Assembly: GCF_002933345.1 (NCBI RefSeq)
Contig: NZ_PDKR01000001.1
Coordinates: forward strand, 1 to 64,000
DNA length: 64,000 nt
Reading direction: 5' to 3'
Source of the DNA: Candidatus Pantoea edessiphila
GTDB taxonomy: Bacteria > Pseudomonadota > Gammaproteobacteria > Enterobacterales > Enterobacteriaceae
Shown in pieces: positions 29,558-50,544 of the stretch. How positions within the stretch are numbered: position 1 is the first letter of the stretch; each line of letters starts with the position of its first letter. Under the pieces are notes generated by a model. The model made no database searches, was not told the DNA's origin, and saw only the letters and a program-made list of their open reading frames with translations. The position numbers and the translations under genes were made by a program.

Positions 29558-30205
29558 TTATTTTTTATATAACCCATATTTTAAAATATAATCAATAACA
29601 ACTTGTGGAAGTAAGTTATTACATGGTTTATTTTGCTTAAAAAGTATTCTGATTTCGCTAGATGAAATATTAAAAAAAGGAGTATCGGCTAACCATATAT
29701 ATCCTGATGGTTTTAAATATAAATTTTTTATATCTTGAATAACGTACTTATTTATCCAAAAAAATCTTTCTTTTTTTTCATTACTTAATTTATAATAGCG
29801 ACGCTTACATACTAATAAATGACATAAAGAGAGGATATCCTGCCAACGATACCATTTATTTAAATTTAATAAAGAATCATAACCAATTATAAAAGCAATA
29901 GATTGATTATTACCAAATTCTGTACGTATATTTTCTAAAGTAGAAACAGTCCATGAAGGTGTTTCATATTGTAATTCACGAGAATCAATTTTAAATAATG
30001 GTTCTCTTTCAATAGCATATCTTATCATATTAATGCGTTGTATTGCATTAGCTTCTGGTAATAAACGATGAGGTGGATTACAATTAGGCAATAAAAATAT
30101 GCGTTCTAAACGAAGCTTAGTAGCTAATATCTTTGCTGTATATAAATGACCAAAATGAATAGGATCAAAGGTCCCTCCAAATATGGTTCGTATTTTACAA
30201 GACAC
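29558..30205 (-). CDS. nadD: nicotinate-nucleotide adenylyltransferase
   Basis: NadD adenylates nicotinate mononucleotide on the way to NAD. I choose the GTG at 30205, giving 215 residues (E. coli 213) that begin VSCKIRTIFGGTFDP; the longer frame from an ATG at 30262 would add a hydrophobic stretch unlike the family and overlap holA by 68 bases. The nucleotidyltransferase motif GGTFDPIHFGH is at 9-19 and the second motif ISSSEIR lies near the C-terminus. With this start it overlaps the holA end by 11 bases. nadA in the same window supplies quinolinate upstream in the pathway. Confidence 0.93.
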   Translation of the reverse strand: MSCKIRTIFGGTFDPIHFGHLYTAKILATKLRLERIFLLPNCNPPHRLLPEANAIQRINMIRYAIEREPLFKIDSRELQYETPSWTVSTLENIRTEFGNNQSIAFIIGYDSLLNLNKWYRWQDILSLCHLLVCKRRYYKLSNEKKERFFWINKYVIQDIKNLYLKPSGYIWLADTPFFNISSSEIRILFKQNKPCNNLLPQVVIDYILKYGLYKK

Positions 30206-31235
30206 GATAAAAGTCAATAGGCAACATATTACTATTGCATAATAAAAATGACAACATTTCAAATTGCAACCAAACTATCTTAGTATAGTTTTGCTTTATT
30301 GAAGTTTCTACTTTGATCAATAAATGTATTATTGTTTGTAAATTAGTAGTATCCAATCTTTTTAAAGCATACTTAAACAAGTAACGTCTTTGTTTCCATA
30401 CATTACAATTATCCATAACAACACATAAAGGTTTTTGTTTTTGTTGATAATAATGCAATTTTACCAATATTAATATATCACGTTGTAAAGTATTAAGTAA
30501 AAGAATTGCTTCATTATTGCTTCGTTCTAACTCATTTAAAATCTTTATTGCACGAATAATATTGCCTTCTAATAAAGCATTAACCCAAACAATAGAAGAA
30601 AAACATTGTGTTTTACTTATTGATAATTTAACTCTAGATAAAGTTAATTTCCTGTCAGGCCACTGCAAACATAACATTTTCATAGTTTGAGTTAATGCTG
30701 ATAAATTACCCTCATAGTAATGACAAAGTAACTTTATTGAATTATCATCTATAGATAATTTCATATCTTTAGCACGAATTTCTACCCATTTGTATAAATT
30801 ATTCAGTTCTAATTTCCAACATAAAACTGATATACCACATCTAGAAATTATTTTAAACCAAATACTACTTTCATCATTTTTATTTAGTTTTCCTATACGA
30901 TAAATAAATAAAATTTCAGGATGTAATAACTTAGATAGTACATTTAGCTGTTTTGTTATTAATTCATTTTGACTAAATTCATTGAATTGTAAATTAATAA
31001 CTTTTTTAGTATTAAATAAACTCAATGAATTACAAATTATAAATAAATTAATCCAATTAGTACTATTATCTATTATAAAATAAAAACTTTCTCCAAAACC
31101 ATTTTTTTTAGCTATTGTATTTATTAAATTAGCACTTTCATTTATTAAAGATGGTTCATTCCCTATTAATATATAGCAATTATGTAATTTCTTATGAAGT
31201 TGAGTGCTAAGTTGTTGAGCATAAATTTTGATCAT
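30195..31235 (-). CDS. holA: DNA polymerase III delta subunit
   Basis: HolA opens the beta clamp within the clamp loader. It has 346 residues (E. coli 343). Sequence is divergent, but the N-terminal IYAQQLSTQL...CYILIGNEPSLINES and the central helical domain follow the family, and the position between lptE and nadD is diagnostic. The start ATG lies just beyond a 25-bp tandem duplication that separates it from lptE. Confidence 0.9.
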   Translation of the reverse strand: MIKIYAQQLSTQLHKKLHNCYILIGNEPSLINESANLINTIAKKNGFGESFYFIIDNSTNWINLFIICNSLSLFNTKKVINLQFNEFSQNELITKQLNVLSKLLHPEILFIYRIGKLNKNDESSIWFKIISRCGISVLCWKLELNNLYKWVEIRAKDMKLSIDDNSIKLLCHYYEGNLSALTQTMKMLCLQWPDRKLTLSRVKLSISKTQCFSSIVWVNALLEGNIIRAIKILNELERSNNEAILLLNTLQRDILILVKLHYYQQKQKPLCVVMDNCNVWKQRRYLFKYALKRLDTTNLQTIIHLLIKVETSIKQNYTKIVWLQFEMLSFLLCNSNMLPIDFYRVL

Positions 31236-31283
31236 CTAAATCTCTTATTTAATCTTCTATCTAAATCTCTTATTTAATCTTCT
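31234..31283. repeat. perfect 25-bp tandem duplication at the lptE/holA junction
   Basis: Copy 1 is 31234-31258 and copy 2 is 31259-31283; they are identical. Copy 2 encodes the last residues of LptE (RRLNKRFR) on the minus strand, and copy 1 lies between the lptE stop and the holA start. If one copy is removed, lptE would end with TGA overlapping the holA ATG as ATGA, a common coupling arrangement. The duplication thus appears recent and has separated the two genes. Confidence 0.95.
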
Positions 31284-31919
31284 AGGTATTATCCTTTTCT
31301 GTCTATTATTATTATTAGAACTTAAAAATTTACGATTATAATATTTATAATTTGATCCCCTATTATGATTTGACGGATTTAATACAATTCTTTTAATTTT
31401 AACTTTTGAGCTATACTGATAGAATAACTCATTTAAAAACTTATCAGCAGCTTGTTGCCCTACATCATCAATTAATTTGTTATATTTTTCATTATTTTTT
31501 GTATCAATAGTTCCAATATACTCACATAATGAATGATAACTATAAGTTTTTATTTTAAATATTTTATGCTTTGGTAATTTTAAATCTACTGATGTCTCTA
31601 ATTTAAATTTACAATTTTTTGTTGTTAATTTCTTTTGCTTAAGAATTTCTAGAAGAGGATAGTTTTGTTTTTGTGGGTGAATAAAATATAGTACAGGGAA
31701 GTTAGCACGATTTTGTTCAGTATCCTTAACTATTCTAATATGATTAGAAGCTAACCCTTTATAAATATAAGGTGAAATAGGGCTATGATCTTTGTCTTTA
31801 TAAATAATTACATCCCTAAATCCATGTGGAGCATGAAAAATCTTAGGTAACTTAAAATTACAACCTGTTGTTGTAAATGTTATCAATATAATTAATAACT
31901 TATAAAAAATATTTTTCAT
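31257..31919 (-). CDS. lptE: LPS-assembly lipoprotein LptE (divergent)
   Basis: LptE plugs the LptD barrel that inserts LPS in the outer membrane. The identification rests on position between leuS and holA, an N-terminal lipoprotein signal (hydrophobic segment 5-16, lipobox ending at Cys20 in TTTGC) and a weak family pattern. It has 220 residues (E. coli 193). The body has diverged strongly. A basic, Asn-rich tail of about 45 residues (from about 175, with repeated N, R and K) is unlike E. coli. The tail might be non-functional drift. An unrelated lipoprotein cannot be excluded. Confidence 0.72.
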   Translation of the reverse strand: MKNIFYKLLIILITFTTTGCNFKLPKIFHAPHGFRDVIIYKDKDHSPISPYIYKGLASNHIRIVKDTEQNRANFPVLYFIHPQKQNYPLLEILKQKKLTTKNCKFKLETSVDLKLPKHKIFKIKTYSYHSLCEYIGTIDTKNNEKYNKLIDDVGQQAADKFLNELFYQYSSKVKIKRIVLNPSNHNRGSNYKYYNRKFLSSNNNNRQKRIIPRRLNKRFR

Positions 31920-31957: not shown

Positions 31958-34564
31958 TTAATTAGTTACGAAATTTATTACTTTTCCTGGTATATATATT
32001 ACTTTTCTAATAGTAACTCCATTAACATATTTTGCAACTGCATATCGTTGAATAGCAACATGTTCTACCTGTTCTTTTGTAAGATTAATGTCTGTAATTA
32101 CTAATTTATCTCGTAATTTTCCATTTACTTGTACAACTATTAAAAATGAATCATTAATAGTTTCATTCCTATAATTATTAGGAACTGGCCAAGACGCTTC
32201 GTCTATACTGATATTTTTATCCCCTACTAGATTTTGCCATATAACATAACAAATATGAGGAGTGAAAGGATAAAGCAAACGTGTTAAAACTAGCAATATT
32301 TCTTGTCTTAATGCTTTATCTTGTTCACTCTCTTTAGGAGCGAGAATTGTTTTATTCATTAATTTCATAATAGCCGCAATAGCTGTATTAAAGGATCTAC
32401 GGCGATCAATGTCCTCAGTTACCTTAATAATTGTTTTATTCAACATTTCTAATAAATTTTTTTGTTTATTATTAAGATTGGATAAAACTAATGGAGCTAT
32501 ACTTAAGTTACTTATATGTTCAAATGCTAAATTCCAAAAACGCTTTAAGAATCTATGTGCTCCAATAATACCAGATTCTTGCCATTGTAATGTCATTTCT
32601 ACTGGAGCAGCAAACATTATGAACAAACGTAACGTGTCAGCACCGTAACAACTAATTATTTTTTGAGGGTCAATTCCATTATTTTTAGATTTAGACATTT
32701 TATTCATTCCATCATAAACTAATAGACGTCCCTTTTTATCAATAGCATTTATAATTTCACCTAATTTATTACGTTTTACAATTACATCTAATGGAGATAT
32801 CCAATTGCGATTACCATTGTTATCTACGTAATAAAAAGAATCAGATAATACCATACCTTGACAAAGAAGACGCTTTACAGGTTCATTGGAATTTAAAAAA
32901 CCAGCATCTCGTAATAATTTATGATAAAAACGAAAATACATCAAATGCATTATAGCATGTTCTATACCTCCTATATATTGATCTACTGGCAACCAGTAAT
33001 TGGCTTCTACAGAATCTATAATATCTTTAGTATAGCCAGGTGAGGTATAACGTGCATAATACCATGAAGATTCCATAAAAGTGTCAAAAGTATCAGTTTC
33101 TCGAAACGCAACTTGATTATTTATTTTAATTTTAGCCCATTCTTTATTTGTTTTTATTGGACTAATAATACCATCCATAACAATATCTTCAGGTAATATA
33201 ACCGGTAATTGATCTTTAGGAATTGGAACTAAAGTTCCGTCTTTTAATGTTGCCATTGGAATTGGCGTACCCCAATAACGTTGACGTGAAATATTCCAAT
33301 CACGAAGACGATAATATATTTTACGTATTCCAATTTTTTTTGATATTAATTCTTCAGATACAATATTAATTGCATCTTTATGATTTAATCCATTAAATTT
33401 TCCTGAATTAAATAATACACCTTTTTCTATCATTGCTGATTTATTAACATTTGGCTCACTACCGTCATTATTTAAAATGACTGATTTTATAGGCAAATTA
33501 TATATTTTAGCAAATTCCCAGTCATCATTATTATGGGCCGGAACAGACATTATGGCACCTGTACCATATTCTGAAAGGATAAAATTTGATATCCAAACTT
33601 GGATAAGTTCACTAGTTAATGGATGAATTGCCATTAAATTCGTAATGACTCCTTTCTTTTTTCTCTTTGCTATATTAGTTGCAGAAATATTAGTATTTCT
33701 GCATTCCTTGATGAAATTAGAAATTGAAATATCATTTTTAGAAATTTTTAAAGTTAATGGATGATTTAAAGATAAATTAATATAAGTTACTCCAAAAATA
33801 GTATCTGGACGTGTAGTATATACTATTATTTTATCCTTAATGTTATTATTATTGGCTATTTGAAAAATAATTTCTAAACCTTCAGAACGTCCAATCCAAT
33901 TACGTTGCATAGTTTTTACTTTTTCAGGCCAATCTTCTAAAAGATCTAAATCTCTTAATAGTTCTTCTGCATAATCAGTGATTTTCATAAACCATTGTGA
34001 AATTTCTTTACGTTTAACTGGAGTATCACAACGCCAACAACGACCATTAATAACTTGTTCGTTAGCTAATACAGTTTGGTCTTGATTACACCAATTTACT
34101 TCTGATAGTTTCTTATACACTAGACCTTTATTATAAAGTTTTATAAAAAATAATTGTTCCCAGTAATAATATTCTGGTCGACAAGTAGTTATTTCTCGAT
34201 TCCAGTCATAGCTAAAACCTAAAGATTTTAGCTGTTTTTTCATATAAGCTATATTTTTATAAGTCCAAATCGCAGGAATAGTATTGTTTTTAATTGCAGC
34301 ATTTTCAGCTGGTAGTCCAAATGCATCCCATCCAATTGGTTGCAATACATTTTTTCCAAGTAAACGTTGATATCTTGTAATTACATCTCCAATAGTATAA
34401 TTACGAACATGTCCCATATGTATATGACCAGAAGGATAAGGTATCATAGATAAACAATAATATTTTTCTTTATTTTTATTCTCAGTTACATTAAAAATTT
34501 TATTTTCATCCCAAATACTTTGAACTTTAAATTCAATATCTTTAGGATGGTATTCTTTTTTCAT
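31958..34564 (-). CDS. leuS: leucyl-tRNA synthetase
   Basis: LeuS charges tRNA-Leu. I start at the ATG at 34564, giving [15 protein letters not shown], which aligns with E. coli MQEQYRPEEIESKVQ without a gap; an in-frame GTG two codons upstream (34570) is better spaced from AAGGA and cannot be excluded. About 868 residues (E. coli 860). The HIGH motif appears as [11 protein letters not shown] near 40-50, the CP1 editing domain around 220-420 has TTRPDTIFG, and the KMSKS loop KMSKSKNNG is intact near 619. tRNA-Leu(UAG) is in the same window. Confidence 0.96.
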
Positions 34565-34907
34565 AAACACTTACAGTGATCCTTAATTTATAACCGACTG
34601 CAATAATATATTTTTATCTTTATTATAACAATTTTATTATTTTATTAATAATACTAAAAACATAAAGAATATGTTATTAAAACTTTACTTGAAAATATAT
34701 AATAATTTATTATATTTAATACAACAAAATTGTTTATTTATTTTGAAAGAACTTAAAACCTAAAATAGGTTTGTTTATTTAAAATATAAAAAATTCAACA
34801 AGACATTTTATTTTAAGAATAATTGAGTATAGTTTGTAAAATTTGTTTTTGTTGACTATTATCATCTGGATTTAAACTAATCTATTCTCTTTATCTAAAA
34901 TGATGTT
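34565..34907. other. spacer between ybeY and leuS
   Basis: 343 bp, A/T-rich, no gene recognised. E. coli has lnt, corC (ybeX), glt transport genes and others in this interval; all are gone. Confidence 0.5.
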
Positions 34908-49278: not shown

Positions 49279-50544
49279 ATGAGTAACTTGGAAATCCTTG
49301 TTCCTGATTTACCTGAATCAGTTAGCGATGCTTCAATAGCAGTTTGGCATAAAAAACCAGGAGATATTGTCAGTTTTGATGAAGTATTGGTAGAAATCGA
49401 AACTGATAAAGTTATAATAGAAGTTCCAGCAGTTGCCGACGGAATACTTGCCAATATTTTAGAAGATAAAGGTGCAGTTGTAAAAGCACGTCAAGTTATT
49501 GGTTATTTAAAAGAAACTATTAATAAAGAAACTGTCATAATTAATAATGATACAGATAATAGAAATGATACAGATAATAGAAATGATACAGATAATAGAA
49601 ATGATCAAAATAAAAAAATAGACATCTTAGTTGAGAAAAAAGAAAAAGATAAAGAAAATAATGCATTAACTCCATCAATTCGCAGGTTAATTATGGAGTA
49701 TGATTTAGATATTTCTCAAATAAAAGGAAAGGATATTAATCAACGCATTAATATTGAAGACATCAAAAATATTATAGAAAATCAACAAAAAAATACAAAT
49801 GTAAATATACATTCAACAGTTAAGGATTCTATTTCAAATGCTAATCGTGTTGAAGAACGTATCCCAATGACACGTTTAAGAAAACGCATTGCAGAAAGAT
49901 TAATAGAAGCAAAAAATAATACAGCTATGTTAACAACATTTAATGAAGTTAACATGCAACCAATTATAAAAATTCGTAACCAATATGGTGATCTTTTTGA
50001 GAAAGAACATGGAATTCGTTTGGGTTTTATGTCCTTTTATGTTAAAGCGGTTGTTGAAGCACTAAAAAAATATCCAGAACTCAATGCTTTCATTGATAAT
50101 GATGATATAATCTATCATAACTATTTTGATGTCAGCATCGCTATATCAACACCTCGCGGATTAGTTACTCCAGTTTTAAATAATGTTGATAGTATGAGTA
50201 TGGCAGATATTGAAAGAAAAATAAAAGAACTAGCAACTAAAGGTCGGGATGGTAAATTAAAAATAGAAGACTTAATAGGTGGTAATTTTACCATTACTAA
50301 TGGTGGTGTATTTGGATCATTAATGTCAACACCCATCTTAAACCCACCACAGAGTGCAATTTTAGGTATGCATGTTATTAAAGATCGACCTATGGCCTTG
50401 CAAGGTGAGATTGTAATATTACCAATGATGTATTTAGCTTTATCTTATGATCATCGGTTAATTGATGGTCGTGAGTCTATTGGTTGTTTAGTTAAAGTAA
50501 AAGAAGCTCTAGAGGATCCAATACGTTTGTTGCTGGATATATAA
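49279..50544 (+). CDS. sucB: 2-oxoglutarate dehydrogenase E2 component (dihydrolipoyl succinyltransferase)
   Basis: SucB forms the core of the complex and makes succinyl-CoA. It has 421 residues (E. coli 405). The N-terminal lipoyl domain has the lipoylated lysine in [13 protein letters not shown] (Lys44); a flexible linker follows, then the peripheral subunit-binding domain ([14 protein letters not shown] near 133-146) and a catalytic domain with His392 and Asp396 in [10 protein letters not shown]. The extra length lies in the linker, where three tandem copies of an 18-bp unit encode repeated DTDNRN. Its lipoyl group needs LipB and LipA of this window. Confidence 0.97.
49549..49602 (+). repeat. 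three perfect 18-bp tandem repeats in the sucB linker
   Basis: Copies at 49549-49566, 49567-49584 and 49585-49602 are identical and in frame, encoding DTDNRN three times between the lipoyl and subunit-binding domains. Being a multiple of three, copy changes would only alter linker length. Confidence 0.95.

Follow-up and report, generated by a model that had tools for sequence, protein, structure and literature searches.

The lipoprotein LptE (RlpB) of the Enterobacterales is known as the plug of LptD and as its assembly partner in the export of lipopolysaccharide (LPS). A review recounts that mutating its K136 (E. coli numbering) together with a second residue disrupted LPS binding (PMC6164715). 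Buchnera has lost both LptE and LptD (PMC3246468), and the symbionts of Edessa stink bugs are all reported to be without the lipid A pathway, except for lpxA in some (PMC8032781). The main text of the latter study contains no occurrence of lpt, lptD or lptE and leaves the lptE that these symbionts retain undiscussed, and a limited literature search found no account of a symbiont that retains LptE but not LptD.

The overlapping of neighbouring genes offers a further point of comparison. Overlapping pairs amount to 6% in Buchnera versus 13% in E. coli, and gaps of 20-100 bp are more frequent in the former (PMC3091783). For native E. coli pairs, reinitiation at the downstream gene is reported to drop by 40-80% at +14 nt and to be nearly all lost at +38 nt, while a distance of ~20 nt almost abolishes coupling; the same paper also cites studies with a far longer reinitiation reach (PMC10666635).

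The locus considered here belongs to the Edessa symbiont Candidatus Pantoea edessiphila (G000) and lies in a window of 64,000 nucleotides, by which we mean the whole stretch of DNA analysed. Its LptE is like that of other Enterobacterales in its place between leuS and holA, in its lipobox cysteine and in its predicted fold, but differs in that its partners are undetected, five of 37 family-conserved columns are kept, two cysteines (Cys103 and Cys132) are new, and the tail is long and unconserved. As in coupled ATGA pairs, the inferred one-copy state of the junction has the 4-nt overlap found in 36/52 larger relatives, whereas the genes are now separated by 21 nt, a distance that costs the published pairs most of their reinitiation (PMC10666635). 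Fewer overlaps and wider gaps in a reduced genome recall Buchnera (PMC3091783), with the difference that the mutation which opened the gap is still visible; LptE, lost there together with LptD (PMC3246468), is moreover kept in the Edessa lineage. For the Edessa symbionts as such, loss of the lipid A pathway is on record, lpxA persisting in some (PMC8032781).

A tandem duplication across the lptE/holA border

The genes concerned are all encoded on the minus strand. The leucyl-tRNA synthetase gene leuS (31958..34570) lies upstream in the same cluster, followed by lptE (31257..31919; 220 aa) and by holA (30195..31235), which encodes the DNA polymerase III delta subunit and has a nadD-like cytidylyltransferase gene (29558..30262) downstream of it. 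The holA reading frame is intact and matches TIGR01128 at E 6.5e-59.

Where lptE meets holA, two perfect 25-mers adjoin with 0/25 differences between them, and TRF reports the array at 31234-31284 with a period of 25 and a match of 100%, so that the identical side-by-side copies claimed in the preliminary description are indeed present. Copy 1 (31259-31283, minus strand), the upstream one in transcription, consists of the final eight LptE codons (RRLNKRFR) and the T of the TAG stop; copy 2 (31234-31258, minus strand) takes in the AG of that stop, the spacer of 21 nt and the first two letters (AT) of the start codon of holA. Read along the minus strand, LptE ends in RRLNKRFR-TAG (stop at 31259-31257) and is followed by 21 nt and the holA ATG (31235-31233). 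With one copy removed the junction would read AGATGATC, a TGA stop overlapping the start codon as ATGA, and the residues of LptE would not change. Provided that the single copy is the ancestral state, the step to two turns a 4-nt overlap into a 21-nt gap and exchanges the TGA for the present TAG. The unit that was copied reaches across the border of the two genes, so that the end of LptE lies in copy 1 and the holA start region in copy 2, and both proteins are untouched. The junction sequence thereby bears out what had been described for the ATGA of the one-copy state, the preserved LptE sequence, the new TAG stop and the displacement of holA.

A chance origin of the repeat was considered and ruled out. 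The 25-bp unit, with up to three mismatches allowed, has two sites only in the 64-kb window, where 100 shuffles lead one to expect 0.00. Perfect tandem repeats with a period of at least 12 likewise number two in the window, against a mean of 0.08 in 100 first-order Markov windows, none of which contained one with a period above 17. Adjoining and identical copies beyond chance expectation are the marks of a tandem duplication, and a 161-base junction query has a single match in the 835,639-base genome (12 contigs).

Slippage, which the preliminary description had named as the cause, fared less well. The copies agree over 26 positions at period 25 and show no leftward extension, leaving a breakpoint homology of 1 nt in place of the short direct repeat on which replication slippage depends. 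So little shared sequence gives no support to slippage on a short repeat that was already there, and a template switch of another kind would account for the copy equally well. The claimed recency holds: 0/25 differences between the copies set a 95% upper bound of 0.113 per site, while the lptE tails of G000 and four congeners differ by 0.36-0.59 per codon position. Measured on these sequences, the duplication is recent relative to species divergence. Assembly error aside, it is genuine, recent and ordinary.

The consequences for holA translation were gauged from the same two states. The 23 nt preceding the holA ATG are identical before and after the duplication, and a weak Shine-Dalgarno-like stretch upstream of holA has -2.9 kcal/mol in both; the genome has two sites where a 16S rRNA 3' end contains the anti-Shine-Dalgarno motif. 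Opening the holA start region is predicted to cost 5.8 in the two-copy state and 5.0 in the one-copy state, the difference amounting to 0.8-1.4 kcal/mol in the direction of a higher cost. With the 23 nt unchanged and opening costs so close, an altered Shine-Dalgarno sequence or fold was rejected as the main effect. From the distance dependence described for E. coli (PMC10666635), a strong loss of reinitiation from lptE to holA at 21 nt is plausible by analogy, but the uncoupling asserted in the preliminary description is an overstatement.

Overlap loss in relatives and repeats in the LptE tail

The five genomes which we call the Edessa symbionts (G000, G001, G002, G004 and G005) fall together as a single group in both the HolA tree and the LeuS tree. 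The congeners include Pantoea sp. SoEX (host Edessa oxcarti) and Candidatus Pantoea edessiphila SoEL and SoET; we infer that G001 is an Edessa symbiont and that G003 is a Brachystethus symbiont.

We compared 78 lptE/holA junctions, 60 from among the matches listed and 18 from the 30 loci of an earlier locus set. The 60 are a non-random choice, comprising 35 higher-scoring large genomes, all 19 listed genomes below 2 Mb not already included, and six of 2.4-3.3 Mb; the 12 loci left out of the junction count are G002 (contig end), G003 and ten genomes from other families. In genomes of at least 2 Mb the overlap measures 4 nt at 36/52 junctions and 1 nt at 12/52 (48/52 together), which agrees with the earlier characterization of ATGA as the usual overlap. 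Among the 26 genomes below 2 Mb, five are without a detectable lptE, and the remaining 21 comprise four 4-nt overlaps, 16 gaps and one longer overlap, with G060 counted as a gap that would become a GTGA overlap if its start codon is GTG. The gaps of the Edessa symbionts measure 21 nt in G000, 16 in G001, 1 in G002 (by eye), 18 in G004 and 12 in G005, and an overlap of 1-4 nt is absent from all five. It has also been lost in 12 reduced genomes which retain LptD. Judged from these junctions, overlap loss is the rule in reduced genomes and nothing special to G000.

The spacers of G001 and G004 appear alike by eye, while G002 and G005 share another ending, and these differing endings suggest that there was more than one route to overlap loss among the Edessa symbionts. 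The species tree was tried as an arbiter of how often the overlap was lost and was set aside because the HolA, LeuS and joint trees disagree: the first does not resolve the placement of G000, the second sets it among the other Edessa symbionts (support 82/82) with G001 outermost, and the third sets it outside the other four (support 27.9/38).

The duplication copied the final eight codons of the LptE tail (residues 177-220; 31260..31391, minus strand), a region which is unconserved, falls outside the LptE profile match (residues 5-166) and is modelled with low confidence, pLDDT being below 50 in a first structural model and block means 47-57 in a second. Between species, its codon positions 1, 2 and 3 show nearly the same level of difference (0.448, 0.495 and 0.483). 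Tandem repeats were matched by TRF in the tails of three Edessa genomes, with period 25 in G000, period 24 in G002 on both sides of a contig break, and period 18 (85%) in G004; the tail of G001 is repetitive by eye, yet TRF gave no match there. Over all genomes, TRF matched 5/78 tail entries (14,947 bases), a set in which four entries are upstream ORFs from genomes without lptE, and 5/77 core entries (34,424 bases). Among the tail matches, that in G217 lies outside the Edessa group. Repeats are thus not peculiar to tails, and matches this few do not show lptE-tail repeats to be a family-wide property or hotspot. Within the Edessa group the 3' end of lptE is repeat-prone, as far as these tails can tell.

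Two observations on repeats elsewhere may be recorded here. In the Edessa oxcarti symbiont (G002), two contigs (L032 8220-8287; L005) end in one 24-bp, 8-residue array inside lptE, so that the assembly divides the gene between them. The window also contains a perfect 18-bp in-frame tandem repeat of 3.3 copies (49546-49605) in a 2-oxoacid dehydrogenase acyltransferase gene (49279-50544), where it sits between the lipoyl and E3-binding domains. As in the lptE tail, extra residues are probably harmless at this site.

LptE without detectable export partners

The lptE product is best described as an orphan homologue of the LPS-assembly lipoprotein. It matches NCBIfam NF008062 at E 1.6e-8 and with 34.6 bits, below the curated cut-off of 235, and a Pfam search with it returned no match at E 1; its gene occupies the orthologous position in the order leuS-lptE-holA. 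The modelled core has the LptE fold, the best Foldseek matches of the predicted model in the PDB being LptE structures (5ixm, 5iv9, 5iv8 and 4n4r; for 5ixm_H, E 3.2e-8 and TMt 0.68). A second model, based on 17 sequences, reproduced the same two hairpin strands at higher confidence (mean pLDDT 76.4).

Residues were counted in 61 proteins drawn from the 78 junctions together with G002 and G003, namely five from Edessa symbionts, 48 from genomes of at least 2 Mb and eight from other small genomes. Fourteen were excluded because they did not match the lipobox pattern (G107, G050, G068, G059, G192, G181, G155, G100, G110, G139, G090, G018, G016 and G003), and five because the upstream ORF was absent or too distant (G054, G011, G201, G020 and G013). 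The lipobox cysteine, Cys20 (31860..31862, minus strand), as read from the sequence, is conserved in 5/5 Edessa symbionts. So too are Cys103 (31611..31613, minus strand) and Cys132 (31524..31526, minus strand), both invariant in this group; the 48 proteins from larger genomes have no Cys at the former position and F at the latter (48/48 each), and neither cysteine occurs in the other small-genome proteins (0/8). Columns conserved in at least 95% of the 48 larger-genome proteins number 37, of which five persist throughout the Edessa proteins; the eight other small-genome proteins keep nearly all. In the Edessa proteins different residues have become fixed, most notably Cys103 and Cys132. K136 falls in a gap in 4/5 Edessa proteins and is K in G000, in a region where the alignment is weak. 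In the predicted hairpin (strands 104-114 and 120-130) the new cysteines lie at the open end, where they miss directly opposite positions by no more than one residue. A DsbA-family gene is present in 6/6 genus genomes, and a Cys103-Cys132 disulfide is possible.

The LptE of G004 (L116), the shortest and most divergent, has an Asp directly after its lipobox cysteine. An Asp in this position is a mark of inner-membrane retention in E. coli.

Profile searches (for LptD at E 0.001) detected LpxC, LptD, LptF/G and LptA/LptD_N in none of the five Edessa symbionts, and each of these matches one of the six genus genomes, always G003. Of what a functional LptE would be expected to accompany, neither lipid A synthesis, for which LpxC was the sole gene tested, nor LptD with the Lpt bridge was thus detected in any of the five. 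The LptD of G003 scores only 32.5 bits, so a more divergent LptD could escape a profile search at this threshold. The lptE frame is open in 5/5 Edessa symbionts (in G002 up to the contig break). At the lptE place of G003, a genome with LptD and LpxC, there is a 289-residue frame (L021) with an Asn/Tyr-rich insert, which overlaps holA by 8 nt; holA itself was matched in two pieces there.

The wider family offers a frame for this pattern. Among 198 family genomes, a sample that includes only G000 and G001 of the Edessa group, LptD was found in 156, LptE in 159 and neither in 39. Every genome with LptD has LptE (156/156), LptD without LptE occurs in none, and LptE without LptD is confined to G000, G001 and G153. 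The last of these (2.8 Mb) is a draft which is 94% complete, and a missing contig is the likely reason for its absent LptD. On these counts of gene presence, joint loss of LptE and LptD is the rule and the Edessa symbionts are the clear exception.

Codon positions 1, 2 and 3 differ by 0.441, 0.306 and 0.400 in the lptE core, by 0.327, 0.226 and 0.330 in holA, and by 0.194, 0.103 and 0.309 in leuS, marking lptE as much less constrained than either neighbour. Set against the lptE tail, only position 2 is clearly lower in the core (0.306 vs 0.495). Third positions of the core codons show 0.33-0.46 differences between species, and core identity between species is 26-51%, a range which slow decay would also produce. 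In a simulation of substitutions only (2000 runs), the 170-codon core was stop-free in 0.65% at 0.15 neutral substitutions per site.

Competing readings and their meaning

Taken together, we consider it likely that a single, recent and probably neutral 25-bp tandem duplication arose at the 3' end of lptE in this stink-bug symbiont, and that the orphan lptE, freed from LPS export, probably serves another envelope role. Copy 1 would have kept the LptE end and copy 2 the holA start region, leaving the spacing alone altered. Comparative evidence suggests that the duplication was tolerated because the LptE tail is unconserved and repeat-prone and because the overlap is dispensable in reduced genomes. 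It seems very improbable that the repeat is an artefact of assembly or sequencing and that the true genome holds a single copy with an intact ATGA overlap. The G002 assembly does break at the same gene end, both contigs ending in the 24-bp array, but the array in G000 is only 51 bp long, and short-read assembly usually collapses short tandem copies and seldom creates them. Also against an artefact are the 2 x 300 bp MiSeq reads used for the new genomes of PMC8032781 and the 206x mean coverage listed there for the Edessa bella symbiont, which we infer to be G000. The duplication might instead be adaptive, freeing holA translation from that of lptE once LPS export had ceased to depend on LptE. 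The missing overlap in all five Edessa symbionts and the strong distance dependence of reinitiation in E. coli pairs (PMC10666635) are compatible with such a benefit; nevertheless, the 12 reduced genomes which retain LptD have lost the same overlap, the duplication leaves the 23 nt that precede the holA start as they were and raises the predicted opening cost by 0.8-1.4 kcal/mol, and there is no sign of selection, and we regard an adaptive origin as improbable.

As to lptE itself, its survival where the rest of the LPS export machine and its cargo are undetectable implies that it may now do something else. It persists as an open lipoprotein-coding frame without detectable LptD, LptA, LptF/G or LpxC, and if it has indeed been freed for another envelope role, the new cysteine pair would be the most visible change. 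The gene might alternatively be a decaying remnant, open by chance or acting as a mere bridge which carries translation from leuS to holA. The low core identity of 26-51%, the retention of 5/37 family-conserved residues across the five species and the repeat-bearing tail are all such as decay would leave. Yet the frame is open in five diverged species, although neutral cores were rarely stop-free in the simulation, which modelled substitutions and no indels; position 2 differs less between species in the core than it does in the tail; the lipobox and the cysteine pair are invariant; a translational bridge is superfluous once the overlap is gone in 5/5; and 39/40 other LptD-less genomes of the 198 are also without detectable LptE, the exception being the incomplete G153. 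We therefore judge a remnant unlikely, if deserving of attention. The original function of LptE could have persisted, with LPS of outside origin or an LptD that escaped detection, but there is little to recommend this idea: in its favour are the conserved lipobox cysteine and the LptE fold of the model, and against it LptD, LptA/LptD_N and LptF/G are undetected in 5/5, and K136 lies in a gap in 4/5 Edessa proteins, albeit where the alignment is weak. A new envelope role is favoured because five species keep lptE open with its lipobox and predicted fold, and the orphan LptE has probably been repurposed. A fuller version of this repurposing, on which our opinion is evenly divided, holds that LptE outlived LPS and LptD to become an LPS-independent envelope lipoprotein, with its export residues dropped, an invariant and possibly disulfide-bonded pair of hairpin cysteines, and a variable tail growing by tandem duplication, the 25-bp repeat being the latest step.

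The duplication may be read as one route by which overlaps are lost in reduced genomes, captured while the mutation is still readable. For a protein known through its partnership with LptD, the orphan LptE outweighs the duplication in importance. A lineage with LptE, and without detectable LptD or lipid A synthesis, would offer a natural test of an independent role for LptE in an LPS-free outer membrane.
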